Shown here: one piece after another, positions 47,713-61,261 of the stretch
Numbering within the stretch: the stretch's first letter is position 1
How the letters are laid out: each line of letters starts with the position of its first letter
Assembly: GCA_027459505.1 (NCBI GenBank)
Contig: DAIDIE010000030.1
Location: forward strand, 1-63,213
Direction: 5' to 3'
From: Acidobacteriota bacterium
Lineage (GTDB): Bacteria > Acidobacteriota > Terriglobia > Terriglobales > SCQP01
Length of the DNA stretch: 63,213 bases
Notes under the pieces: model-generated
What the model was told of the DNA's origin: nothing
The model's input: the letters and a program-made list of their open reading frames with translations, nothing else
Database searches by the model: none
Position numbers and translations under genes: made by a program

Positions 47713-50700
47713 CTAATTCGTGGTGACCGAGAAGCTGTTTACGGCAAGGCCCTGACCGCCCTGCCACACTTCAAAGCCATACTCCACGTCAATCAGATAC
47801 CACGACGGACTCAGCGCCGCGGTTCCAGAGGCGTCGCCTACCGCCTGTTCCTGAGTCGCGTCCGTGAAGATCGGGATCAGGTTCAGGTTGCTCACTGACG
47901 TCACCGGGTTGTTGAGCACGTAGGAGACCACGTTCCATTCCGGAGAGCTGCCAAAGCGGGCAACCCAAACGGTCCACGACATGCCGTCAATGGTGACCGT
48001 TCTGACTGGAGAGCCGCCAGGCTGCGGACAGTTGCTGGCATCGCAGGAATGGTTGATCCAGATCATCACCTCCGTGCCATTGGGCTGGCCGCTGGTGGTT
48101 GGCGTCTGATTGAACCAGATGTCGTAGGCGTCGTCGTTGGCGTAAACATCGCCCTGGGTGTTGATGTTGACGCTCGAGACCGCTGTCTTCAACTGGCTCT
48201 CCTGAATCGGCAAATGCGTATCGGCCGCACTGGTACAGGTGCCCCAATGGCAACCAAAATAGATCGATGCATACGTCTTCGGAGCGGTCGAAGCTGACGT
48301 GTAGTCGTTGGCGCCGAAGTTGGCGTTGAGATTGAAGCCCACCGCCGAGGTGCTCATCACCGCGGTTTGCGGGTCAGTGGAATTCCATTCATCGGATTGG
48401 TAGGTGTAATCGCCGCAGGGGAAGTTGTACGTGCCCCACGGCCCCGAGACGGTGGACCCGTCACCGGCGCAGCTCGCGGTCGAGCTGGTGACGTTGAGCG
48501 TCACACAACTCTGCGCGCTGTTGTAGGTGTTGGTGTCGCTCGGCGTGAACGTGGTGCACAACTGCACGTTGCCGGCGGTGTTCATCACCGTGCCAGCCGC
48601 CGGGTTATAGGCGAAGCTGCCCGCCACCGCGCTGCCATTCACCGTCGCCGTGGCGTCCAACTGCGTCGAACTGAGCGCCGTTCCCACCGGCACAGGCGCC
48701 GGAGTAGGCCAGTTGATCGTAGGTGTCAGCTTGCCGCCACTGACCACGTCAATGCCGCTCACTTTGGGATAGTTGGCCGCTCCCACCGTGAACGCGATGG
48801 TGATGTTCCCATTGCTGTCGGCGGTGGTGGTGAAGCTCTTGACGATGGCGATGTTTTCCCCACCGGCGGCCGCGAAGATGTCGAAATTGGTCAGCACCTG
48901 CTGTCCGTTGATGGAGACGTTGAACTCCCGCTGTCCCGCGGCGGTCCAGTAAATCTCCGCGAAGTGCAGGTTCACGGTGTACGTTGCGCCGGCAGTAAGC
49001 CCCGGCACGGTGTAAGTGAAGCCCGAGCTGCCGTAGCGCTCGGTCTGGTACACCGATTGCGGCGCCGGATTGCTCACCTTGGAGGTGTCGATGGCGCTGG
49101 TGGTCGAGGCAGTGCTTCCCCCGGAGAAGTATTCGTCGGCCGCCCAGGCGCCGCTCGCCCCGCCTCCGGCATTGACGCTGATTTCCGTCGCCGCCGGATT
49201 CACCGTGATCGACACCGAAGCGCTGGCGCTGGTATAAGACGAGGTATCCGTAGGCGTAAATTGCACGTTCAGCGTCTGTGTGCCCACCGGCAACACCGTC
49301 CCCGCCGCCGGATTGTAGCTGAACGTCCCGGGCACCGCCGAGCCATTGCAGGAGGCGGTCGCATCCAATTGCGTCGAACCCAGGGCCGTGCCATAAGTGA
49401 TCGGCGCGGGAGTGGCCCAGTTGATCGTGGTCGTGCATGTCGAACTGGTCGAGGTCACGTCCAGGACCACGCTCCCTGTGGCGCTGTTGTAGTCCACCGT
49501 GTCGCTTGGTGTAAACGTGACGTTGAGCGCCACGTTTCCGGCGGTGTTCATCACCGTGCCGGCGGCTGGCGAGTAGCTGTAGCTGCCCGCAATGGCGCTG
49601 CCGTTCACCGTGGCGGCTGCATCCAACTGTGTCGAACTCAGCGCCGTGCCCACCGGCACGGCGGCTGGCGTGGGCCAGTTGATTACCGGCGTGACTTTTG
49701 CGGATGAGGAGGAGAGCACCTGGATGCCACTGACCACCGGATTGTTGGCGGCGCCGTTTTGGAAGTCAATGGTAATGGCACCGGAACCGCTGGCTGTCGC
49801 GGAGAAGGATTTATCGACTGCGATAAACGCTCCACCCGCGGCGGCCACGATGTCGAAGTTGGTCAGCACCTGCGTACCGTTGATCAGGACGTTGAACTGG
49901 CGCTGTCCCGGAGCGGTCCAGTAGTGCTCGGCAAAATGCAGCACCACAGTGTAGTTCGCCCCTGGCGTGAGGTTGGGAATCGTGTATGTGAAGCTGCCCC
50001 AGCGCTCGTTCTGGTAGACAAATTGCGGCGCCGGATTGGCCACCTGTGAGGTATCGACCACATTGGAGTAGCTCGCCGCGGTGCCGCCGGAATAATCCTG
50101 GTCGGCTGACCACGAGAAGGCGGCGCTGCCGCTGCCGGCGGCAATCGCGTCAACCGTTGCGGGCTGGGCGCCCTGCAGCGCGCGAATCTCGATGCCGCTG
50201 ACTTTGGGCTGGTCCGCCGCGCCCACCGTGAACTGAATCGTTATGCCCCCGCTGCTGCTGGCGGTCGCCGTAAACGATTTCACCACGGCGATGTTCTCGC
50301 CGCCGGCGGCGGCGAAAATGTCGAAGTTGGTCAGCACCTGTGTGCCATTGATCAGCACGTTGAACTCGCGCTTACCCGCCGCGGTCCAGTAAATCTCGGC
50401 GAAGTGCAACCCCACGTTGTAGCTGGCGCCCGGCTCCAGGTTGCTGATGTTGTAGGTGAAAGCGCCATAACGCTCGGTCTGGTAGACCGACTGTGGCGCC
50501 GGATCGGCGACATTGGCGGTGTTGATCGCCGCGGTGGTGGAGGCGGTCGAGCCTCCGGAAATCATTTCATCGGCCGCCCAGGCGCCGCTGGCGCCTCCCC
50601 CGCTGTTGATCTGCAGCACCGGCTCGCCCTGCACCACCTGGATGCCGCTCACCTTCGGCTGGTCCGCCGCGCCGGCGGCGAACTGAATGGCGATGGCGCC

Positions 50701-51180
50701 CGAACTGTTGGCTGTCGCTGTAAAGCTCTTGACGACGGCAATATCCTTGCCGCCAGCGGCGGCAAAGATATCAAAATTCGTCAGCACCTGTGTGCCGTTA
50801 ATCAGCACGTTAAACTGCCGGCTGCCGGCGCTGTTCCAGTAAATTTCAGCGAAATGCAAGTAGACCGTGTAGACGCCACCCGCCGTGAGGTTGGGGATGG
50901 TGTAGCTGAATGCGCCATAGCGTTCGCTCTGGTAAACCGCCTCCGGGGCGGTGCCCGAAACGCTGCTGGTGTTGATGGCGTCAGTGGTGCTGGATACTGA
51001 TCCGCCGGAATAGTAGGCGTCCGCCGCAAAGCTTCCCTGGGCGGCGCCGCCCGCGTTGATGGCGACGGTGGACTGCGCTCGCGCTCTCCCGGAGGTAACC
51101 ATCACCCCCAGCAGCAGCGCCAGCGCCAACAGGCCCGCCCGCCGGCTGCTCTGCCTCAGGCTGCGGAAATGCAACGTCAT
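47713..51180 (-). CDS. Secreted GH12 endoglucanase with four malectin and three Ig-like domains
   Basis: Modular extracellular enzyme of 1155 aa. GAGGAGAACAAT precedes the ATG. Signal peptide residues 1-35. Malectin (CBM57-like) domains 1-3 occupy about 36-490, each with AGG..G.W.AD..YSGG, YQ.ERYG.F.Y.I and LHFAEIYW motifs. Two Ig-like linkers, a fourth malectin and another Ig-like linker lead to a GH12 domain over the last ~250 residues. GH12 residues are GTEVMIWINHS (nucleophile Glu) and YLIDVEYGFEVWQGG (acid/base Glu), ending LAVNSFSV. GH12 enzymes cleave beta-1,4-glucan, xyloglucan or mixed-linkage glucan. The high similarity of the DNA repeats suggests recent domain duplication. Confidence 0.9.
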   Translation of the reverse strand: MTLHFRSLRQSSRRAGLLALALLLGVMVTSGRARAQSTVAINAGGAAQGSFAADAYYSGGSVSSTTDAINTSSVSGTAPEAVYQSERYGAFSYTIPNLTAGGVYTVYLHFAEIYWNSAGSRQFNVLINGTQVLTNFDIFAAAGGKDIAVVKSFTATANSSGAIAIQFAAGAADQPKVSGIQVVQGEPVLQINSGGGASGAWAADEMISGGSTASTTAAINTANVADPAPQSVYQTERYGAFTYNISNLEPGASYNVGLHFAEIYWTAAGKREFNVLINGTQVLTNFDIFAAAGGENIAVVKSFTATASSSGGITIQFTVGAADQPKVSGIEIRALQGAQPATVDAIAAGSGSAAFSWSADQDYSGGTAASYSNVVDTSQVANPAPQFVYQNERWGSFTYTIPNLTPGANYTVVLHFAEHYWTAPGQRQFNVLINGTQVLTNFDIVAAAGGAFIAVDKSFSATASGSGAITIDFQNGAANNPVVSGIQVLSSSSAKVTPVINWPTPAAVPVGTALSSTQLDAAATVNGSAIAGSYSYSPAAGTVMNTAGNVALNVTFTPSDTVDYNSATGSVVLDVTSTSSTCTTTINWATPAPITYGTALGSTQLDATASCNGSAVPGTFSYNPAAGTVLPVGTQTLNVQFTPTDTSSYTSASASVSITVNPAATEISVNAGGGASGAWAADEYFSGGSTASTTSAIDTSKVSNPAPQSVYQTERYGSSGFTYTVPGLTAGATYTVNLHFAEIYWTAAGQREFNVSINGQQVLTNFDIFAAAGGENIAIVKSFTTTADSNGNITIAFTVGAANYPKVSGIDVVSGGKLTPTINWPTPAPVPVGTALSSTQLDATATVNGSAVAGSFAYNPAAGTVMNTAGNVQLCTTFTPSDTNTYNSAQSCVTLNVTSSTASCAGDGSTVSGPWGTYNFPCGDYTYQSDEWNSTDPQTAVMSTSAVGFNLNANFGANDYTSASTAPKTYASIYFGCHWGTCTSAADTHLPIQESQLKTAVSSVNINTQGDVYANDDAYDIWFNQTPTTSGQPNGTEVMIWINHSCDASNCPQPGGSPVRTVTIDGMSWTVWVARFGSSPEWNVVSYVLNNPVTSVSNLNLIPIFTDATQEQAVGDASGTAALSPSWYLIDVEYGFEVWQGGQGLAVNSFSVTTN

Positions 51181-51612
51181 ATTGTTCTCCTCGTGCTTTG
51201 GTGGTTGATCTGAACAGCCACTTTGGCGCGCCCGCTGGAACCGCTCCTTGACGAAAAGGCCTGTTTCCGCTGCCCCTCAGCAGGTGGATCTTTGGCGCGA
51301 GCCAAGCCGCTGCAAACTCCGCTGAGTGTTGAGCGGAAGCACTTCGTGCGGAAGTTAAGGACTGCTAAATTAACACGCAAGCATTGAAAACAAATGACTT
51401 AGACGGGCGCTAAGGAAGCAGGAAAGTCGCTGTTCCCGGCGGCCGGCAGGCACGTAAAGACCCGTTAATCCCACGTAAGCCGCGCCAGAAGGTCGGAACA
51501 GGACGGCAGATGAAGGTGAGCCCAGGGAAAAATCCGCAGATGCCGCCGAGGGCCGCGCCGGCGGTGGAACGAACCGGCGGCGACTGCTTCGAGAGCGGGG
51601 CACGCGCCTGGC
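51181..51612 (-). promoter_or_regulatory. Upstream region of the GH12 gene with a candidate operator
   Basis: No gene in these 432 bp. A 6-bp dyad, TCCGCT, 8-nt spacer, AGCGGA, lies at 51318-51337. An AT-rich stretch near 51365-51385 on the minus strand (TTGCGTGTTAATTTAG) could hold the promoter. If the neighbouring sensor protein binds DNA, this is the first place to look. Confidence 0.4.
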
Positions 51613-53163
51613 TTACTCCGCCTCCACCGAAATCGCGTTCACCAGCGCGTAGTTCACTTCCGGCACAAAACGCAGGTCCAGCTTTCCGCGGTAATCGGGC
51701 GCCAGATTCCGGAAGCGGACCACCACCGCCCGGTGCCCGGCCTGATGCCGCAGCACGTCAAAGCGGGAGAGCAGCGCGGTTCCATTGCAACGGACATCAA
51801 ACTGCCGTGAACCCACACCGCCGAACCCGGAATTCTCTTTTCCCCAGTAGCTCTCGCGCAGCAGAAGGGTCACTTGATAACGGAAGCCTTTCGCCACCGG
51901 TATGTCGTAATCGAAGGTTCCGTAACGTTCATGAGTCAGCAACTTCCCAAAGCCGCTGGCGGGCTGGCCAGGGTCTTCCACATTGCGTCCACCCAACTCG
52001 TAGCGCTCGCTCCGCCAATGACCGCCCTCCGGATCGGTAAACAGCTGCGGCAAGGTGGATATTCGCACCGGATTCGGTCGCGCGCCGCGCTGCGGCAGGA
52101 TTTCAATGCCGCTCAACACGTCCTCTTCCGAGGTGAACTGCAGTCGAATCCGTCCGCTGGCGTCCGGTGAAACGTTGGCATACACCCGCTCGGTGGCGGT
52201 ATCAGTGCCCATGGCATCGGTCACCAGATCGAATGATTCATTGATGCCGTTGACGCTGTAGTTTTCCGTTTTTGTCAGCGCCTCAACGCCAGGCCGCGTC
52301 TCGGCAAACAGCAAATGCACCTCATACCGGCCCGGTTTGACGGGAATAGCGTAGGTAAACTCCCCTTCCCGTCCTGCCTCGAAGAGGGCGGCATCCGAAG
52401 TGCGATAGAGTTGCGCTACTGTTCGCTGGTAGGTGTGCCCACCGGAAAAATAGCGATCGCTCAGCCAGCGCAAGCCATCGGAGTCGACGTAAGCGGCAGT
52501 GGAACCACAGCGGATGCGCAGCCCCTGGGACAACAGGTCGGGCGTCTCCCGCACCCGCGTAAACAGTCCCTTGGCATGCAGACTGCCGCCAACACTGGGC
52601 GTCAACAGCACCCAGGCGCTCTCGCGTGCCCGGCGCACCAGCCACCATCCGGCGCCCATCGCAACAGCGGCCAGCAGAGTGATGGCGGTAGCGAGCGCCG
52701 GCAACCGCCACCGCGCTGCAAGCGCTTTCGCTCCTGCTGGCGCGCCGTCCCTGGCCGCTTGTTCGGCCAGCGCGGCCGCCAACTCTTCCGCTGGCGTCGG
52801 GACAAACTCCGGCGCGTAAGAGCCGGGCGGCAAAACGATGCGCAGCGGGTCGCGCCGCCCCTCTCCGGCGTAATAGGCCTTCAGGCGGCGGCGCAACTGG
52901 TGCAGATCTACTCGGACAATCGCGTCGGCCTGCGGATCAAAATTGGCGGGACGGCCCAGCGCCTCGACCGCGATGTTGTATTCCTTGATGGCCTCTCCAC
53001 GCCCTTCAAACCGCTCGTCACAGAGGTAGCTCAGGATGCGCGACAGCTTGACGGCTTTCTGAAACTGCGATGAGCGCAGAACCCGCTCCAGCGCCTCGCG
53101 CTCCGCCGCTGCGTTTTGCGGGGCGCCGCCCGCATCCCCAATTTCCAGGTGAAGTTCCCTCAT
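51613..53163 (-). CDS. Winged-helix / transmembrane / malectin protein: candidate one-component sugar sensor
   Basis: 516 aa from the ATG at 53163. Residues ~20-120 form a cytoplasmic domain common in Acidobacteria and resembling a winged helix (LSRILSYLCDERFEGRGEAI, IVRVDLHQLRRRLKAYYAGE, PLRIVLPPGSYAPEF). One membrane helix follows (about 150-175, LPALATAITLLAAVAMGAGW). The remainder is two malectin-like domains (RYFSGGHTYQ ... GEFTYAIPVKPGRYEVHLLF and RYELGGRN ... YGTFDYDIPVAKGFRYQVTL), outside the membrane. This is the layout of CadC/ToxR-type regulators with a carbohydrate-binding sensor. It sits between the GH81 and GH12 genes, whose products carry the same malectin fold. DNA binding is inference. 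Confidence 0.82.
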   Translation of the reverse strand: MRELHLEIGDAGGAPQNAAAEREALERVLRSSQFQKAVKLSRILSYLCDERFEGRGEAIKEYNIAVEALGRPANFDPQADAIVRVDLHQLRRRLKAYYAGEGRRDPLRIVLPPGSYAPEFVPTPAEELAAALAEQAARDGAPAGAKALAARWRLPALATAITLLAAVAMGAGWWLVRRARESAWVLLTPSVGGSLHAKGLFTRVRETPDLLSQGLRIRCGSTAAYVDSDGLRWLSDRYFSGGHTYQRTVAQLYRTSDAALFEAGREGEFTYAIPVKPGRYEVHLLFAETRPGVEALTKTENYSVNGINESFDLVTDAMGTDTATERVYANVSPDASGRIRLQFTSEEDVLSGIEILPQRGARPNPVRISTLPQLFTDPEGGHWRSERYELGGRNVEDPGQPASGFGKLLTHERYGTFDYDIPVAKGFRYQVTLLLRESYWGKENSGFGGVGSRQFDVRCNGTALLSRFDVLRHQAGHRAVVVRFRNLAPDYRGKLDLRFVPEVNYALVNAISVEAE

Positions 53164-53296: not shown

Positions 53297-53337
53297 AAAA
53301 AGCTGGGGGGCGGCGCCGCGCCGCGGCCCCGCCCCCC
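53297..53337 (-). terminator. Intrinsic terminator of the GH81 gene
   Basis: On the minus strand a GGGGGGCGG/CCGCCCCCC stem with a GC-rich inner loop is followed after three bases by TTTTTGTG. It is about 58 bp after the GH81 stop. Confidence 0.8.
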
Positions 53338-53394: not shown

Positions 53395-56300
53395 CTAATG
53401 GCAGCAGGTATTGGAAGTCCAGATGGCGCTTCCAGCGGAGTTGTAGATCACCATGTTGCCATCCGTTTGAATGGCCAGGTAATCGCCCGGGTTGTTCGAG
53501 GTGTTGGAGGCCCAGTTTGCGCCGGCGTTGGTGTAGGTCACCAGGTTGCCGTCCGCCTGCATGATGGCCGCTACCGTGGACTGTCCGTTCGTGCCGGTCG
53601 CCCACAGCGCGGTGCTCCCCTCATACAGCACCAGGTTGCCGTCGCTCTGCTGCGACAGCGTGAAGCGGCTGTCGCAGGAAAGCTGCGTCTGCCCCGGCAA
53701 CAACTCCTGGTTGGCGGTCATCTTGCCGCATTGGGCGTTGTCCCCGGTCACGGTGAAGCCGCTGATCTTCGGCTGATCCGCCGCCCCCGTGGTCAACTGA
53801 ATCACCACCTGCCCACTCGAGCTGGTGGTCGTGGTGAAGTTTTCCTCGATGGCCTTGTACTGCCCACCCGCCGCGGCGAGGATGTCGAAGTTGGTCAACA
53901 CCTGCACGCCGTTGATCAGCACATTGAACTGCCGCTGTCCCGCGCTGGTCCAGTAGTTCTCCGAGAAATAGAGTTTTACTGTGGCCTGCACGTTAGGCGC
54001 AAACCCGCCCACAGTGTAGGTCGACGGGCCCCAGCGCTCGGTCTGGAAGACGGCCTGCGGCGGCACCGGCGCCGACACCAGCGACGTGTCAATGGCGTTG
54101 CTGGTCGAGGCCGTGTTGCCGCCCGAGTACAGGGCGTCGGCAATAAACGCGCCGCTCGGGCCGCCTCCGCTGTTATCCGAAACGCTGACCGCCTGGCCAA
54201 TCCCCGAACTGGCGGAGTTGGAGGCGGGTTCGACATCGATGCCGCTGATCTTTGGCTGATCCGCCGCACCCACCGTGAATTGAATGACGATCTGGCCACT
54301 GGAGTTGGCGGTGGCCGGGAACGTCTTCACGATGGCCTTGTCGGCCGCTCCCGCGGCGGCAATGATGTCGAAGTTGGTCAGTACCTGCGTTCCATTGATG
54401 ATCACGTTGAACTCACGCTGTCCCGTGGCCGTCCAATAGATCTCGGCGAAGTGCAGGTTGACGTTGTAATTGGCCCCGGCGGTCAATCCGCCGATGGTGT
54501 AGGTGGAGGCGCCCCAACGTTCGGTTTGGTAGACCGCCTGCGGCGCCGGATTGCTCACCAATGAAGTATCGATAGTCGCGGTGGTCGAGGCCGCGCTGCC
54601 GCCGGAGTAATCCTCGTCGGCCACCCAGCTTCCGCTGGCCGCGCCCCCACTGTTGATGAGCGTGCCGCTGGTGCTGCCGCCGCCTCCGCCCGTTCCGCCG
54701 CTGCTGACCGCCTCCACATCGATACCACTGACTTTCGGCTGGTCCGCCGCGCCCACCGTGAACTGCACCACGATCTGGCCGCTGGCGTTGGCCGTCGCGG
54801 AGAAGGTCTTCACGATGGCCTTGTCGGCCGCCCCCGCCGCCGCGATGATATCGAAGTTGGTCAGCACCTGCGTGCCGTTGATCAGCACGTTGAATTCACG
54901 TTGCCCGGTGGTGGTCCAATAGATTTCGGCAAAGTGCAGGTTGACGTTGTAGCTGCCACCCGCGGTGAGTCCGCCGATGGTGTAGGTAAAGGCTCCCCAG
55001 CGTTCGGTCTGGTAGACCGCCTGTGGCGCCGGATTGCTCACCAGCGAGGTGTCAATCGTCGCCGTGGTGGAGGCGCTATTGCCGCCGGAGAAGTCCGCGT
55101 CGGCCAGCCAACTGCCGGAAGCCGAGCCGCCCGCGTTGATCATCACGCTGCTCGCGCTGCCGCCGCCGCTGCCGCCGCCTCCGGTCCCTCCCCCGCCGCT
55201 GCCGCCACCGCTGGTGCCAGTGGTCCCATTGCCGCCGCTTATGGTGAAGCTTTGGTTATCCGTCTGCAGCGTTCCCGGCGCAACCGAAAGGCTCGCGCCA
55301 TCGCTGAAATTCACGGTAATGGTCGTGCTGCTGGGATTAAAGGCCGCGTGCGTCACCGCGCCCGTGCTGGGGTTCTTGAACACGGCGTAGAGCGGCGTAT
55401 TCGCCGTCACCGCCTCGTCCACCTCGCCCAGCTTCTGCAGATTGCTCAGCCAGTAGTACTCGTGCGCCTTGGTCTCGCCGTCAAATACATAGCTGGTGCT
55501 GTTGAATTCATTGAGCGCCGTGCTGGGATCGTAAAAGGCCTGGTACTCTTCCGTGAGGTCGGGCCAATTACTGCTGCTGGTGCTGAAGCTGCCGCCATCC
55601 AGGCTGACAATCTCATTGAAGTTGGTCTGGTTGTAGGCCGGGTCGCGGCCCAGGTACAGCGAGCCGCCGGTGAAGGGCAGGAACTCGATGTCGTGCTCCA
55701 GATCGGGCACCGCGCTGAACCAGGTTCCCGTGTCGCTCTTCGCGTCAAAGACGTTGGCCACTTCCACCCGATTGAAGCCAGAGGGGAAGGTCTTCACCGA
55801 TCCGTCGTTGAACCAGTAGTCGTAAACCGAGTTGATTTCCGTCGTGTAGAGGTAGATACCCTCGTTTTCGACGGCGCTGTTGCCGGTCGCCGCGCCGTAA
55901 AGGATCAGTCCCACCCAGGCGTTCACCGCCTCCGAGCTGGACTCCTCGTTGCCGCCGTCCCCGAATGGCGCCTGCCCCGCCGCCCATGAGTGGCCGCCAT
56001 AGACGTCAAAGTAGCGCAGGTAGGGGAACATGCTGTCGCCGCGCTGGTCTTCCGCGATGTCGCGCCGCAGCAGGTCAATCATGCCTCCGTAATTGCTGGA
56101 GGTGAGGAAGTTCGGGTCAAACATGTCCGCCAATGCGGCGGCGTGAATCCAGTACCCGTAATGGAAGTGGTGATCGTTGAGGCTGGTATCGGTGCCGTAG
56201 CTGGCCGGATAGCCGATCAGCGTGCCCCAGTTGCTGTCGTAATAGAACAGGTCGCTGGTCTTGCCCCCGCCGGCGTTGAACCAGGTCTGGTACTCGCCCT

Positions 56301-57576
56301 CCAGCCCGCTCAGAAAGTTGTTGTAGTCGGTGGTGTCGCCAATCGTCTTGGTGATGGGCAAAAGCTGCGCCATGCGGTTCAACTGCTTGCCCAGGCCATA
56401 GGTCTCGTTGTCGGTGAAGTGGTTCCCTTCCCCCGCCACCGTGTTGATAAAGCCCTGCATGCTGGAGGCGTTGTAGTTCCCCGTCGGCGGCAGGAACGGC
56501 AGCACTCCGGGATACTCCATCGCCGTGGTGAACGAGGTACCGCTCAACACGTCCATGGTTCCACGCGGGCTGGCGTAGGTGTAGCTCGTGTTGATCGAGC
56601 TGCCGGAGAGAAAGCTGTACTGATGGGGGTACAGCGCCATCAGGAACCCGGTGTTGGTCCCCTCCATCGCCTGCGTCGTCACCGTAAACGTGGTCGACAC
56701 CTGCGAAGTCGACTGGTTGTAACTATAGGTCGCCTGCGTATTGGTGGGAAACGAGAAGGCGTAGCCGGCGTAGGTGTTCAGCGCCGCCTGACTCGGCAGG
56801 ATGGCCAGTGAAAAGTAGTTGTGTCCGGAGGGCGGATTGCAGGTCAGGGTCGCCGACCCAATGCCGCTCCAACTCCCGCCGCTGGGGCAGAACAGTCCAT
56901 AGTTGCTGCTGCCGATGCTCACGCCCAGCACGTTGCCGTTGTTGGCAAACACCGTCGGGGTTCCCGAGAAGGTCACCTGCGGCGCGCTGCCGTTGGTGTA
57001 CATGTAGACGAACGGCATGCCGCGCCCGATACGCAGCGTCATTGGTCCCCAATTGAGGTCCACCGTCCAGTCGGAAAAGGCGGAGACGTTGACCGCCGAA
57101 GCGTTCAGGCCCGCCACCCCCAGCGTGAGGTCGTTCTGAAAAGGTTTGTTAAACCACGTCCCGTTGTTGTTGACGCCGTTGAAGTAGCCCATCTCCAGTC
57201 CGTTGGCGTTGGTCTGCACCGAGAGCGGCTCGGGAAACATGTAGTAGGGACCGTTGTTGGAGGTCACCACGCCAAGCGGATTCCAGTTCTTGGCCGTCCA
57301 GAACTTGTGTGTGGCCACCGGACCCGAATAGGTGCGGTAAATGGTGGATTGCGGCGCGGTATTGCCCGCCGGCAGCGCCGTCGTGTAGCTGCCCGCGCCG
57401 ACATTGACCACCTGCGCGGAAGCGCCCACCGCTACTCCACACACCACCAGGAGCAGGGACAGAAGCTTGAAAATGTTACGGGAAAAGCGAGCGGCGTGGT
57501 CTTGCGTCTCGGGCTTGCCGCGGCGAGAGCCGCCCTCAGTCGGGGCGGCGGATGATGCAAGCACAACAGAGGACAT
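53395..57576 (-). CDS. Secreted GH81 endo-beta-1,3-glucanase with three malectin domains and a B-lectin
   Basis: 1393 aa from the ATG at 57576, which has GAGGGA just upstream. Signal anchor/peptide near residues 30-55. GH81 catalytic region about 60-790: DHHFHYGYWIHAAALAD, GGNEESSSEAVNAWVGLILY (catalytic Glu residues) and LEHDIEFLPFTGGSLYLGRD. A Gly/Ser-rich linker leads to three malectin domains of ~145 aa joined by Gly/Ser and Ala/Ser linkers. The last ~110 residues are a bulb-type mannose-binding lectin fold, three copies of Q.DGN.V.Y (QSDGNLVLY, QADGNLVTY, QTDGNMVIY). GH81 attacks laminarin, callose and fungal beta-1,3-glucan. Lectin plus malectin probably anchors the enzyme on the wall of fungi or plants. 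Confidence 0.92.
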   Translation of the reverse strand: MSSVVLASSAAPTEGGSRRGKPETQDHAARFSRNIFKLLSLLLVVCGVAVGASAQVVNVGAGSYTTALPAGNTAPQSTIYRTYSGPVATHKFWTAKNWNPLGVVTSNNGPYYMFPEPLSVQTNANGLEMGYFNGVNNNGTWFNKPFQNDLTLGVAGLNASAVNVSAFSDWTVDLNWGPMTLRIGRGMPFVYMYTNGSAPQVTFSGTPTVFANNGNVLGVSIGSSNYGLFCPSGGSWSGIGSATLTCNPPSGHNYFSLAILPSQAALNTYAGYAFSFPTNTQATYSYNQSTSQVSTTFTVTTQAMEGTNTGFLMALYPHQYSFLSGSSINTSYTYASPRGTMDVLSGTSFTTAMEYPGVLPFLPPTGNYNASSMQGFINTVAGEGNHFTDNETYGLGKQLNRMAQLLPITKTIGDTTDYNNFLSGLEGEYQTWFNAGGGKTSDLFYYDSNWGTLIGYPASYGTDTSLNDHHFHYGYWIHAAALADMFDPNFLTSSNYGGMIDLLRRDIAEDQRGDSMFPYLRYFDVYGGHSWAAGQAPFGDGGNEESSSEAVNAWVGLILYGAATGNSAVENEGIYLYTTEINSVYDYWFNDGSVKTFPSGFNRVEVANVFDAKSDTGTWFSAVPDLEHDIEFLPFTGGSLYLGRDPAYNQTNFNEIVSLDGGSFSTSSSNWPDLTEEYQAFYDPSTALNEFNSTSYVFDGETKAHEYYWLSNLQKLGEVDEAVTANTPLYAVFKNPSTGAVTHAAFNPSSTTITVNFSDGASLSVAPGTLQTDNQSFTISGGNGTTGTSGGGSGGGGTGGGGSGGGSASSVMINAGGSASGSWLADADFSGGNSASTTATIDTSLVSNPAPQAVYQTERWGAFTYTIGGLTAGGSYNVNLHFAEIYWTTTGQREFNVLINGTQVLTNFDIIAAAGAADKAIVKTFSATANASGQIVVQFTVGAADQPKVSGIDVEAVSSGGTGGGGGSTSGTLINSGGAASGSWVADEDYSGGSAASTTATIDTSLVSNPAPQAVYQTERWGASTYTIGGLTAGANYNVNLHFAEIYWTATGQREFNVIINGTQVLTNFDIIAAAGAADKAIVKTFPATANSSGQIVIQFTVGAADQPKISGIDVEPASNSASSGIGQAVSVSDNSGGGPSGAFIADALYSGGNTASTSNAIDTSLVSAPVPPQAVFQTERWGPSTYTVGGFAPNVQATVKLYFSENYWTSAGQRQFNVLINGVQVLTNFDILAAAGGQYKAIEENFTTTTSSSGQVVIQLTTGAADQPKISGFTVTGDNAQCGKMTANQELLPGQTQLSCDSRFTLSQQSDGNLVLYEGSTALWATGTNGQSTVAAIMQADGNLVTYTNAGANWASNTSNNPGDYLAIQTDGNMVIYNSAGSAIWTSNTCCH

Positions 57577-57920
57577 AGTTTCCCTCATTACAGGTATGCT
57601 GGGCTTGCATAGTGCAGAACCATAACAGGGCTGGTGAGGAGATGCAATCCTATACAGAGGTATAGGTGAAGAAATTGCGCCGCCTGCCGCCGCGCAAGAC
57701 GCAGTGTAAAGTCCACATTGCGCATGCGGCAGCATGGAAAGCGGCCAGTGCTACGGCAGCAAAGCGCGGCAACCCTCCTTGCATGGGCCGCCAGGTCGAG
57801 CGCGACATCCAAACAACCGCCACTCCCTACGGACAACTGGCAACGGACAACCGGCAACAGTTTCAGGACAAGCTGTCCGATACTGGCCGCCCCTCCGATA
57901 CTGGCCTTCCCCCTGACGCT
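57577..57920. other. Intergenic region with heptamer and 18-bp repeats
   Basis: No gene. Four heptamers (CAACTGG, CAACGGA, CAACCGG, CAACAG) at 57834-57860 belong to the same family as those at 2425. CCGATACTGGCC occurs twice 18 bp apart near 57889-57918. The GH81 promoter should lie within 57580-57640. Confidence 0.5.
57834..57860. repeat. Heptamer tandem repeat, about four units
   Basis: CAACTGG-CAACGGA-CAACCGG-CAACAG, register and sequence related to the repeats at 2425-2464 and in the 61.3-61.8 kb array. Confidence 0.8.
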
Positions 57921-58874: not shown

Positions 58875-59050
58875 ATCCCCATTTTGGCGCATTGGCTGCA
58901 GCCCAGGTGCGCATTGTTCAGGCTTCAGGAATCAGGGGGCGCCGGCCAGGAATCAGAATTCAGGGCTAACCCCCTGCTTCTCCCAGCTCTAAGGCTCAAT
59001 CCCGCCCTGTGAACTCCAGCACTGCCTCCGCCCCGGCTCCCCTCCCCCCC

Positions 59051-59068
59051 TGCTACACTGTCCCCGTG
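59051..59068 (+). promoter_or_regulatory. Extended -10 with leaderless GTG start for the GH3 gene
   Basis: TGC plus TACACT (59051-59059); transcription is expected 7 nt after the hexamer, exactly at the GTG at 59066. No Shine-Dalgarno sequence is present before the GTG. Confidence 0.55.
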
Positions 59069-61261
59069 TTGCACAAACTCCTCGCGCCGTCCTTGTGCCT
59101 CGCCACCCTTCTCCTGGCAGCCTGTGGCGGAAGCACGCCTACGGCTAGCCCCAGCCCTATCAACAACACCCCTGACTGTTCCAGCGGCAGCGTCGACAGC
59201 CGCGCCACCTGCTACGAAAGCCAGATGACGCAGGCGCAAAAGTTGCAACTGGTGACCGGCGACTCGTCCGCTGGAACCATGGGCGGCGCCGGCTTCATCC
59301 CCGGCATTCCCAGCCTGGGCATCCCCGATCTGAACTTTGTCGATGGCAGCGTCGGTGTGGGCAATGGCCTGGGACCGGCCACCGCGCTCCCCTCCTCCAT
59401 CGCCAGCGCCGCCACCTGGGACACCAACGAAGCCTACAAATACGGCACGGTCATCGGCAAAGAGATGCGCGCTTACGGCGCCGACGTGAACCTGGGCGGC
59501 AACGTTAACCTGACCGCGGGCCGCGAGCCCCGCGATGGGCGCACCTTTGAAACCAAAGGCGAGGACCCTCTCCTCGCCGGCGCCATCACCGTCGCGCACC
59601 TGCAAGGCATCGAGGATCAACACGTCATCGCCGGCATCAAGCACTTTGCCCTCAACGACCAGGAGTCCGGGCGCACCACGGCCAACGTCATCATTGACGA
59701 GCGCGCCATGCGCGAGAGCGACCTGCTCGCCTTTGAGATCGGCGTCAAGCAATCGGGCGTTCAGTCGGTGATGTGTGCCTACAACCTGGTCAACGGTGTC
59801 TACAGTTGCGAGAACTCCCACCTGCTGACTGATATCCTCAAAACCAGTTGGGGCTTTCCGGGCTTTGTCATGTCCGACTGGTGGGCTACCCACAGCACCG
59901 CCGCTGCCGCCAACGCTGGGCTCGACCAGGAACAGCCCAATAACACTTATTTTTCCCAGTTAGGCGCCGCAATCAGTTCGGGAACGGTACCGCAGACCCG
60001 CCTCGACGACATGGTGCACCGCATCCTGCACGCCATGATCGCCAATGGAGTCATCGACAACCCACCCAGCAAAGGCACACTCGATGTCGCCGGCGACGAG
60101 GCCATTGCGCAGGAAGAGGAGGAGCAGGGCGCGGTTCTGCTGCAGAACAACAACACTCAACTGCCGCTCAACGCCGCCGCCCTGCATAACATTGCGGTAA
60201 TCGGCTCCCATGCGGATGTCGGTGTGCTCTCCGGAGGCGGTTCCGCTCAGGTACAACCGATTGGAGGCGCGGCGCTCAGCTTTAAGCCCCTCTGCCCGCC
60301 CTGCTGGGGTGGCCAGATCTGGGATCCGTCATCGCCGTTGAAAGCGATCCAGGCCGCCGCTCCCGGCGCCACCGTAAGCTTCAATGACGGCAGCGACCCC
60401 ACCGCGGCGGCCACGCTCGCCGCTGGCGCCGACGTGGCCATCGTCTTCGTCAGCAACTGGGAAAGCGAGGGTATGGACCTGCCCGACCTCGATTTCGACG
60501 ACGATCCGGCAGCGGGCATCAGCGGCCAGGATGCGCTGGTCTCCGCTGTGGCCGCCGCGAATCCGCATACCGTGGTCGTGGTTGAAAGTGGTGGCGCGCA
60601 GATCATGCCCTGGCTTAACCAGGTCAACGCCGTTCTGGAAGCCTGGTATCCCGGCCAGGAGGGTGGGCCCGCCATTGCCAACCTGCTGTTTGGCGTGGTG
60701 AACCCCTCGGGCAAGTTGCCCATCACCTTCCCTGCCAGTGTCAGCCAGCTTCCGCGGCCGCAGATTCCGCAGCCGCCCGACAGCAGCACGCCCTTCAACG
60801 TGAACTATACCGAAGGCTACAACGTGGGTTACAAGTGGTTCGACTCGCAAAACCTCACCCCGCTCTTCCCCTTTGGTTTCGGGCTGAGCTACACCACATT
60901 CAGCTTCAGCAACGCCACGTTGACTAACAACCTGAGCGGGTCCAACCCCAACATTCAGATCAGCTTTAATCTGCAGAATACCGGCAGCGTTGCCGGCGCC
61001 GAGGTGGCCCAAGTCTATCTGCAGATGCCGGCTGCGCTCAACGAAGCGCCACGCCGCCTAATTGGCTGGCTCAAGGTCTCGCTGAACCCGGGCCAGACGC
61101 AGAGCGAAACCATCGAGGTTGACGAGAACACGGCGGCGCATCCACTCTCTTATTGGGACCCCACCAGCCAGCAATGGCAGTTGGGCTCAGGAACTTACAA
61201 CGTCTACCTGGGAGACTCCTCGCGCAACACCACTTTGGTGGGCACCTTCCAGGCGCCCTAA
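59066..61261 (+). CDS. GH3 beta-glucosidase lipoprotein
   Basis: Surface or periplasmic enzyme of about 731 aa that releases glucose from oligosaccharide ends. The GTG at 59066 begins a lipoprotein signal (LCLATLLLAACGG). Family 3 motifs are GREPRDGRTFETKGEDP, KHFALNDQE and GFVMSDWWATHS, whose Asp is the nucleophile; the second domain has FVSNWESEGMDLPDL with the acid/base-region Glu. A fibronectin-III-like C-terminal domain (GAEVAQVYLQMP ... GWLKVSLNPGQTQ) completes the usual GH3 layout. The frame extends to 59009 but those residues are not plausible. It fits the end of a beta-glucan pathway started by the GH81 and GH12 enzymes. Confidence 0.94.
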   Translation: MLHKLLAPSLCLATLLLAACGGSTPTASPSPINNTPDCSSGSVDSRATCYESQMTQAQKLQLVTGDSSAGTMGGAGFIPGIPSLGIPDLNFVDGSVGVGNGLGPATALPSSIASAATWDTNEAYKYGTVIGKEMRAYGADVNLGGNVNLTAGREPRDGRTFETKGEDPLLAGAITVAHLQGIEDQHVIAGIKHFALNDQESGRTTANVIIDERAMRESDLLAFEIGVKQSGVQSVMCAYNLVNGVYSCENSHLLTDILKTSWGFPGFVMSDWWATHSTAAAANAGLDQEQPNNTYFSQLGAAISSGTVPQTRLDDMVHRILHAMIANGVIDNPPSKGTLDVAGDEAIAQEEEEQGAVLLQNNNTQLPLNAAALHNIAVIGSHADVGVLSGGGSAQVQPIGGAALSFKPLCPPCWGGQIWDPSSPLKAIQAAAPGATVSFNDGSDPTAAATLAAGADVAIVFVSNWESEGMDLPDLDFDDDPAAGISGQDALVSAVAAANPHTVVVVESGGAQIMPWLNQVNAVLEAWYPGQEGGPAIANLLFGVVNPSGKLPITFPASVSQLPRPQIPQPPDSSTPFNVNYTEGYNVGYKWFDSQNLTPLFPFGFGLSYTTFSFSNATLTNNLSGSNPNIQISFNLQNTGSVAGAEVAQVYLQMPAALNEAPRRLIGWLKVSLNPGQTQSETIEVDENTAAHPLSYWDPTSQQWQLGSGTYNVYLGDSSRNTTLVGTFQAP

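Follow-up and report, generated by a model that had tools for sequence, protein, structure and literature searches.

A candidate CadC/ToxR-type transmembrane regulator with tandem malectin domains in Acidobacteriota

What could a membrane protein with carbohydrate-binding folds be doing between two glucanase genes? The question is raised by one gene in a 63,213-nucleotide stretch of DNA from an Acidobacteriota bacterium (hereafter the window), whose product, P0001, was read in a preliminary description as a possible CadC/ToxR-like switch. We consider, with a probability of about 0.85, that P0001 is a single-pass regulator of the CadC/ToxR type, in which a winged helix would act on 11-bp repeats, the distal malectin domain would sense carbohydrate and neighbouring genes would be switched. 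The predicted fold of the inner domain, matches of two relatives to a known DNA-binding family, the single membrane helix and the absence of a receiver domain all back this reading.

Genomic setting of the probable regulator gene

The gene occupies positions 51613 to 53163, as previously reported, and lies on the minus strand, where it reads from ATG (53163) to stop (51613) as a protein of 516 residues. The plus strand of the same interval is closed by stops. Upstream lies a gene for a GH81 enzyme with three malectin domains (53395..57735, minus strand), and downstream one for a GH12 enzyme with four (47713..51180, minus strand), so that the Pfam counts agree with the seven malectin domains given earlier for these two neighbours. 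All three genes run in the same direction. Beyond GH81 come an aldo/keto reductase gene and then a GH3 gene of the same cluster (59009..61261, plus strand). The enzyme families suggest a cluster for the breakdown of beta-glucan.

A GC-rich hairpin followed by a run of T, probably a terminator, is found 3' of the GH81 stop (53305..53337, minus strand; the hairpin from an inverted-repeat search, the T run from the sequence), which suggests that the regulator gene is transcribed on its own, apart from GH81. A simple terminator scan did not return this hairpin, and the output of the promoter and terminator scans was at chance level. The stretch that separates the aldo/keto reductase gene from GH81 also contains an 18-bp tandem direct repeat (57876-57911; TCCGATACTGGCCGCCCC, then TCCGATACTGGCCTTCCC), with no further convincing copies within the window.

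Inner domain and membrane helix

No Pfam model matches the first 200 residues of P0001, and thus no DNA-binding model, PF00486 included. The AlphaFold2 model, built from a 41-sequence alignment, nevertheless predicts with high confidence (pLDDT 96) a cytoplasmic OmpR-like winged-helix domain of about 105 residues (17-122; 52798..53115, minus strand), in which two helices are followed by a recognition-type helix and a two-strand wing. When the Foldseek candidates were re-aligned with VIA, ranks 1 to 6 were taken by DNA-binding domains of the OmpR/PhoB family (SaeR, PhoB bound to DNA, ArlR, RpaA), and CadC appeared at rank 10 (Z 5.7). However, Z-scores of 5-7 are within the range of common arrangements and no Foldseek match reached E <0.001. 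Moreover, winged helices of ScpB were first in Foldseek and at ranks 7-9 in VIA, where the OmpR-type domains are ahead by less than one Z unit; the fold by itself is therefore no proof.

The link to the OmpR type is also made by sequence: two family members, L133 and L148, match Trans_reg_C at 31.2 and 30.9 bits (Pfam cut-off 26.2) exactly over the inner domain. A profile of this domain showed only a weak similarity to six OmpR-type domains from the same genome, too faint to carry the assignment alone, and an hmmsearch with it against PDB sequences found nothing. The conserved core reads FDP..D.IVRV...LR..L..YY, and many of the residues invariant in the family fall in the predicted recognition helix (residues 82-99, IVRVDLHQLRRRLKAYYA; 52867..52920, minus strand; placed by the secondary structure of the model and the invariant residues), among them R84, R91, L94 and Y98, which do not vary in 34 sequences. 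The cytoplasmic winged-helix-like domain of the preliminary description is thus upheld by the model and its OmpR/PhoB-type matches, and its concern that residues 20-120 might lack any DNA-binding fold was not borne out by this model or by the two Trans_reg_C matches.

Hydropathy gives one membrane segment only, as had been claimed: the best 19-mer starts at residue 154 with a mean of 1.82, against 0.89 for the best elsewhere. We place the single transmembrane helix at residues 154-176 (52636..52704, minus strand), within a model helix of residues 153-185. Lysine plus arginine amounts to 3.5 per protein on the N-terminal side of the helix and 2.8 on the C-terminal side, a small difference. Malectin folds are usually extracytoplasmic. 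The Pfam scan detected no receiver domain in P0001.

Outer malectin domains and putative ligand site

Two Malectin stretches (PF11721) are the only Pfam matches of P0001, and the full-length model reaches a pLDDT of 85.7. By structure, the outer part resembles the ectodomains of the plant receptors ANX2, ANX1 and FERONIA (Z 17-19 over about 290 residues; for ANX2, VIA Z 19.3 over 290 residues), and its distal domain resembles human malectin (Z 17.0, 144 residues, 1.9 A). Pfam and structure matches therefore concur with the two malectin-like domains recognised earlier.

The two domains differ at the sugar site. The contacts of Xenopus malectin quoted in PMC13335976 include Tyr67, Glu87, Tyr89, Tyr116, Phe117 and Asp186. 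Our mapping relies on sequence alignment with malectin and a constant numbering offset; it places Y414 of the distal domain (residues 364-516; 51616..52074, minus strand) at Tyr89, and Y439 and W440 of this domain at Tyr116/Phe117. These columns are aromatic across the family (Y/F/W in 30, W/Y/F in 28 and F/W/Y in 33 of 34 sequences). In the membrane-proximal domain (residues 211-358; 52090..52533, minus strand; Pfam and column counts), the aromatic site is lost and the Tyr89 position mostly holds E, R, S or T. The distal domain is likely to be the ligand site, because the sugar-site aromatics are kept there and lost in the proximal one. We infer that the ligand would be a product of glucan breakdown.

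Distribution of the family

The genome of P0001 encodes five full-length copies of the architecture, P0001 included. Another four of the encoded proteins combine this inner domain and a membrane helix with different outer parts. Among the named genomes scanned, about 36 full-length fusions were found, all in Acidobacteriota, while the inner domain with other partners was also found in Hyphomicrobiales. The full-length fusion is present in about 38 of 200 genomes of the class. Given the four additional copies in one genome and the recurrence across Acidobacteriota, this architecture is far beyond chance. A single genome may hold as many as 19 copies of the inner domain, almost all of them in proteins with one membrane helix; the outer parts comprise PD40 propellers, TPR, TolB_N, malectin and others to which no domain could be assigned.

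One of the sister proteins (L025:5595-7478, contig C37 of the same genome) bears, beyond the inner domain and its membrane segment, a laminarinase-like GH16 fold with SIGIMQ in place of the catalytic motif EIDIME. The motif is also altered in two orthologues, L176 and L177 (SVSIA, SVDIA), one of which has an ordinary GH16 gene directly upstream. The GH16 outer domain of these proteins is probably a dead enzyme used as a sensor. P0001 is probably one of a large family of regulators in Acidobacteriota that has gone unrecognised until now and is encoded near sugar-uptake and sugar-degrading genes.

Genes adjacent to the regulators

A TonB-dependent transporter is the nearest upstream gene of the malectin-type regulators in 26 cases out of 37, in counts that contain a few duplicates since some loci came from both collections. 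These transporters carry a CarboxypepD_reg domain and are nearly all divergent from the regulator. For regulators with the same inner domain and other sensors, a transporter is upstream in 19 of 36 cases (three genomes). Matches to the TonB-dependent transporter family number at least 58-60 per whole genome, an estimated 2% of genes if a genome holds about 4,000.

The preliminary description called for a search for the fusion beside glycoside hydrolase genes. Part of the family is indeed found next to carbohydrate-active genes, the homologues having as neighbours GH16 and GH44 (L050), GH51 (L046, L064), GH9, GH43, GH3 and esterases, but the commonest neighbour is the divergent transporter. In the genome of P0001, the paralogue L022 (contig C19) adjoins a GH16 gene, and three other family regulators adjoin GH3, GH26 or a transporter.

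A predicted operator of 11-bp GTTA repeats

When words were counted de novo in 73 divergent regions, variants of GTTA came out on top. GTTA occurs 11.7 times per kb in the 70 non-redundant divergent regions (15.2 for the malectin type, 7.4 for the others), and 4.2 times per kb in 171 gaps elsewhere in these loci. Of 167 pairs of GTTA on the same strand, 57 are spaced by an exact multiple of 11 bp, compared with 14.6 expected under uniformity, 2 of 37 in controls and 20 as the largest value of 2000 permutations; the distances peak at 33, 11, 22 and 55 bp. No other tetramer recurs at 11, 22 or 33 bp as often as GTTA (40 vs. 0.8 in shuffles). Such a pair is present in 28 of 38 malectin-type regions and in 23 of 28 regulator-transporter regions; at transporter promoters of regulator-bearing genomes that lack an adjacent regulator, GTTA falls to 3.9 per kb and a pair was found in 1 of 38. 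The motif was found and tested against controls within a single data set, and the operator statistics are non-redundant, unlike the neighbour counts. Examples of the repeats are those of L054 (GGTTACCCTGGGGTTACTGTCGCGTTAACG) and L051.

Sites of OmpR/PhoB-type regulators are direct repeats, and those of PhoP must consist of 7-bp motifs separated by a 4-bp spacer, i.e. an 11-bp period (PMC4832192). The GTTA repeats of the relatives have this geometry and are the predicted DNA target of the family.

These elements suggest the following mechanism for P0001. In the periplasm, the distal malectin domain would bind a carbohydrate; an oligosaccharide derived from the glucan of plants or microbes is the probable ligand. 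Binding would change the dimerisation, pairing or spacing of the cytoplasmic N-terminal domains, whose OmpR-like winged helices would bind direct repeats of 11-bp period and thus be set head-to-tail beside RNA polymerase. A comparable arrangement is thought to apply to CadC and ToxR. The neighbouring genes would then be switched, through activation or repression: the divergent TonB-dependent transporter in most relatives and, in the window, most likely the GH12 and GH81 glucanases.

Candidate sites in the genome of P0001

Upstream of P0001 and of GH81, no GTTA and no clear repeat was found. Upstream of GH12, a weak candidate operator is formed by CGTAA, CGTTAA and CGTAA, 10 and 11 bp apart (51452..51484, plus strand; CGTAAAGACCCGTTAATCCCACGTAAG), with a shuffle p of 0.01 for its own region, 15 regions having been tried. 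A search for three GTTA repeats in the whole genome gave 3 matches vs. 15 in the reversed control. No 11-bp-periodic word stands out in the regulator regions of this genome, and pairwise comparison of its intergenic regions gave no shared 20-mer above shuffles. We speculate that P0001 and its relatives may differ in DNA preference.

Alternative explanations

The inner domain could contact a protein, as in an anti-sigma-like or ScpB-like interaction, rather than DNA, which would make P0001 a membrane scaffold or a carbohydrate anchor. This would fit the ScpB winged helices among the structural matches and the missing Pfam DNA-binding match, but leaves aside that the 11-bp GTTA repeats accompany the regulator and are absent from nearly all transporter promoters without one. 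As OmpR-type domains also score above ScpB in VIA, if by a small amount, two family members match Trans_reg_C and many invariant residues sit in the recognition helix, we hold this explanation to be very improbable. With the inner domain taken as DNA-binding, the nature of the signal can still be debated, since the nearest tandem arrangement is that of ANX1, ANX2 and FERONIA. In such tandem-malectin plant receptors, the canonical sugar-site residues are lost, no binding of ANX1 to the assayed oligosaccharides was observed and RALF peptides bind to FERONIA (PMC6038381). The outer tandem of P0001, whose proximal domain also lacks the sugar-site aromatics, might likewise sense a protein, a peptide or the cell's own wall instead of a dietary glycan. 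Unlike the plant receptors, however, the distal domain keeps its aromatics in nearly all sequences; in addition, the neighbours of the family regulators are transporters and CAZymes, and the outer domain of a sister regulator has a GH16 fold. Sensing of a non-glycan ligand is therefore unlikely.

The targets within the window can also be disputed. Most relatives are paired with a divergent transporter. Here GH81, the regulator and GH12 are co-directional, a terminator-like hairpin parts GH81 from the regulator and GTTA repeats are lacking upstream of both. P0001 could thus control only itself and a distant transporter, GH81 and GH12 being bystanders. Against this stand the paralogue next to GH16, the three other regulators of the same genome that adjoin GH3, GH26 or a transporter, and the weak candidate repeat upstream of GH12. 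We find it somewhat doubtful that the two glucanase genes are bystanders, and we prefer to see in them the likely targets of a carbohydrate-sensing regulator.

Comparison with known systems

P0001 shares with CadC/ToxR-like proteins the N-terminal OmpR-type winged helix, the single membrane helix, the C-terminal sensor, in P0001 only presumed to be periplasmic, and the lack of a receiver, and differs from them by an inner domain invisible to Pfam, two extra N-terminal helices and the tandem malectin sensor. A census of transmembrane regulators was built on Pfam DNA-binding models (PMC10269533), so members similar to P0001 would have been missed; inner domains without a Pfam model are a blind spot of such censuses. 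A literature search found no malectin-containing regulator, in line with the earlier statement that no regulator of this design had been described.

SusR-like proteins of Bacteroidota are also membrane proteins that sense oligosaccharides in the periplasm and control polysaccharide genes, including an outer-membrane transporter, and their predicted operators are direct repeats, placed 67 or 77 bp apart for SusR, which is described as unique to Bacteroidota (PMC3878776). The DNA-binding domain of SusR is C-terminal, whereas the winged helix of P0001 is N-terminal, with malectin at the C terminus. By analogy, P0001 would fill the role that SusR has in Bacteroidota. The anti-sigma factors RsgI of Clostridium thermocellum, which set a precedent for sensing carbohydrates outside the cytoplasm, share extracytoplasmic carbohydrate-sensing modules, a single membrane pass and the control of polysaccharide degradation (PMC6056542, PMC12203970), but they act by releasing a sigma factor and have neither winged helix nor malectin tandem; Pfam found no RsgI N-terminal domain in P0001. 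The CrRLK1L receptors ANXUR1/2 and FERONIA likewise have a malectin tandem as ectodomain, anchored by a single membrane helix (PMC6038381); they are eukaryotic, have lost the sugar-site residues and signal through a kinase, a domain that P0001 lacks. With Malectin/CBM57 modules, the common features are the fold and the aromatic sugar-site positions of the distal domain; elsewhere these modules are soluble or enzyme-bound, while in P0001 the module is part of a regulator.

For Acidobacteriota, which are among the most abundant soil bacteria, the P0001 family provides concrete candidate regulators of polysaccharide uptake and degradation genes, together with their likely partners and a DNA site that experiments can probe. 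Should P0001 sense a glycan, a fold with which enzymes bind carbohydrate would here serve as a sensor at the membrane, and the sister protein with a GH16 fold deprived of its catalytic residues points the same way. More broadly, we think it probable that these proteins form a large OmpR-like transmembrane family, with up to 19 members per genome in Acidobacteriota and others in Hyphomicrobiales, in which sensors are swapped (tandem malectin, dead GH16, beta-propellers, TPR, unassigned domains). Its malectin branch would control TonB-transporter and CAZyme loci via 11-bp GTTA repeats, as the equivalent in Acidobacteriota of SusR/HTCS in Bacteroidota, sensing glycans by the folds of its enzymes.

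Other members of the family

In Hyphomicrobiales (Bosea, Xanthobacter, Microvirga, Kaistia and others; L067-L111), the inner domain is often found with TPR repeats, and in Acidobacteriota it is also carried by beta-propeller (PD40) proteins. Three further regulators of the genome of P0001 (L026:3151-4554, L027:5359-6825 and L028:5275-6633) adjoin GH26, a TonB-dependent transporter and a BNR-repeat protein; the outer parts of the two that were scanned have no Pfam match. Some regulator copies are split or shortened in frame (L064:10196-11553, L062, L065) and are perhaps decaying genes or assembly errors. Finally, two inner-domain regulators flank a single GFO/IDH/MocA oxidoreductase gene in L146:3949-9360.
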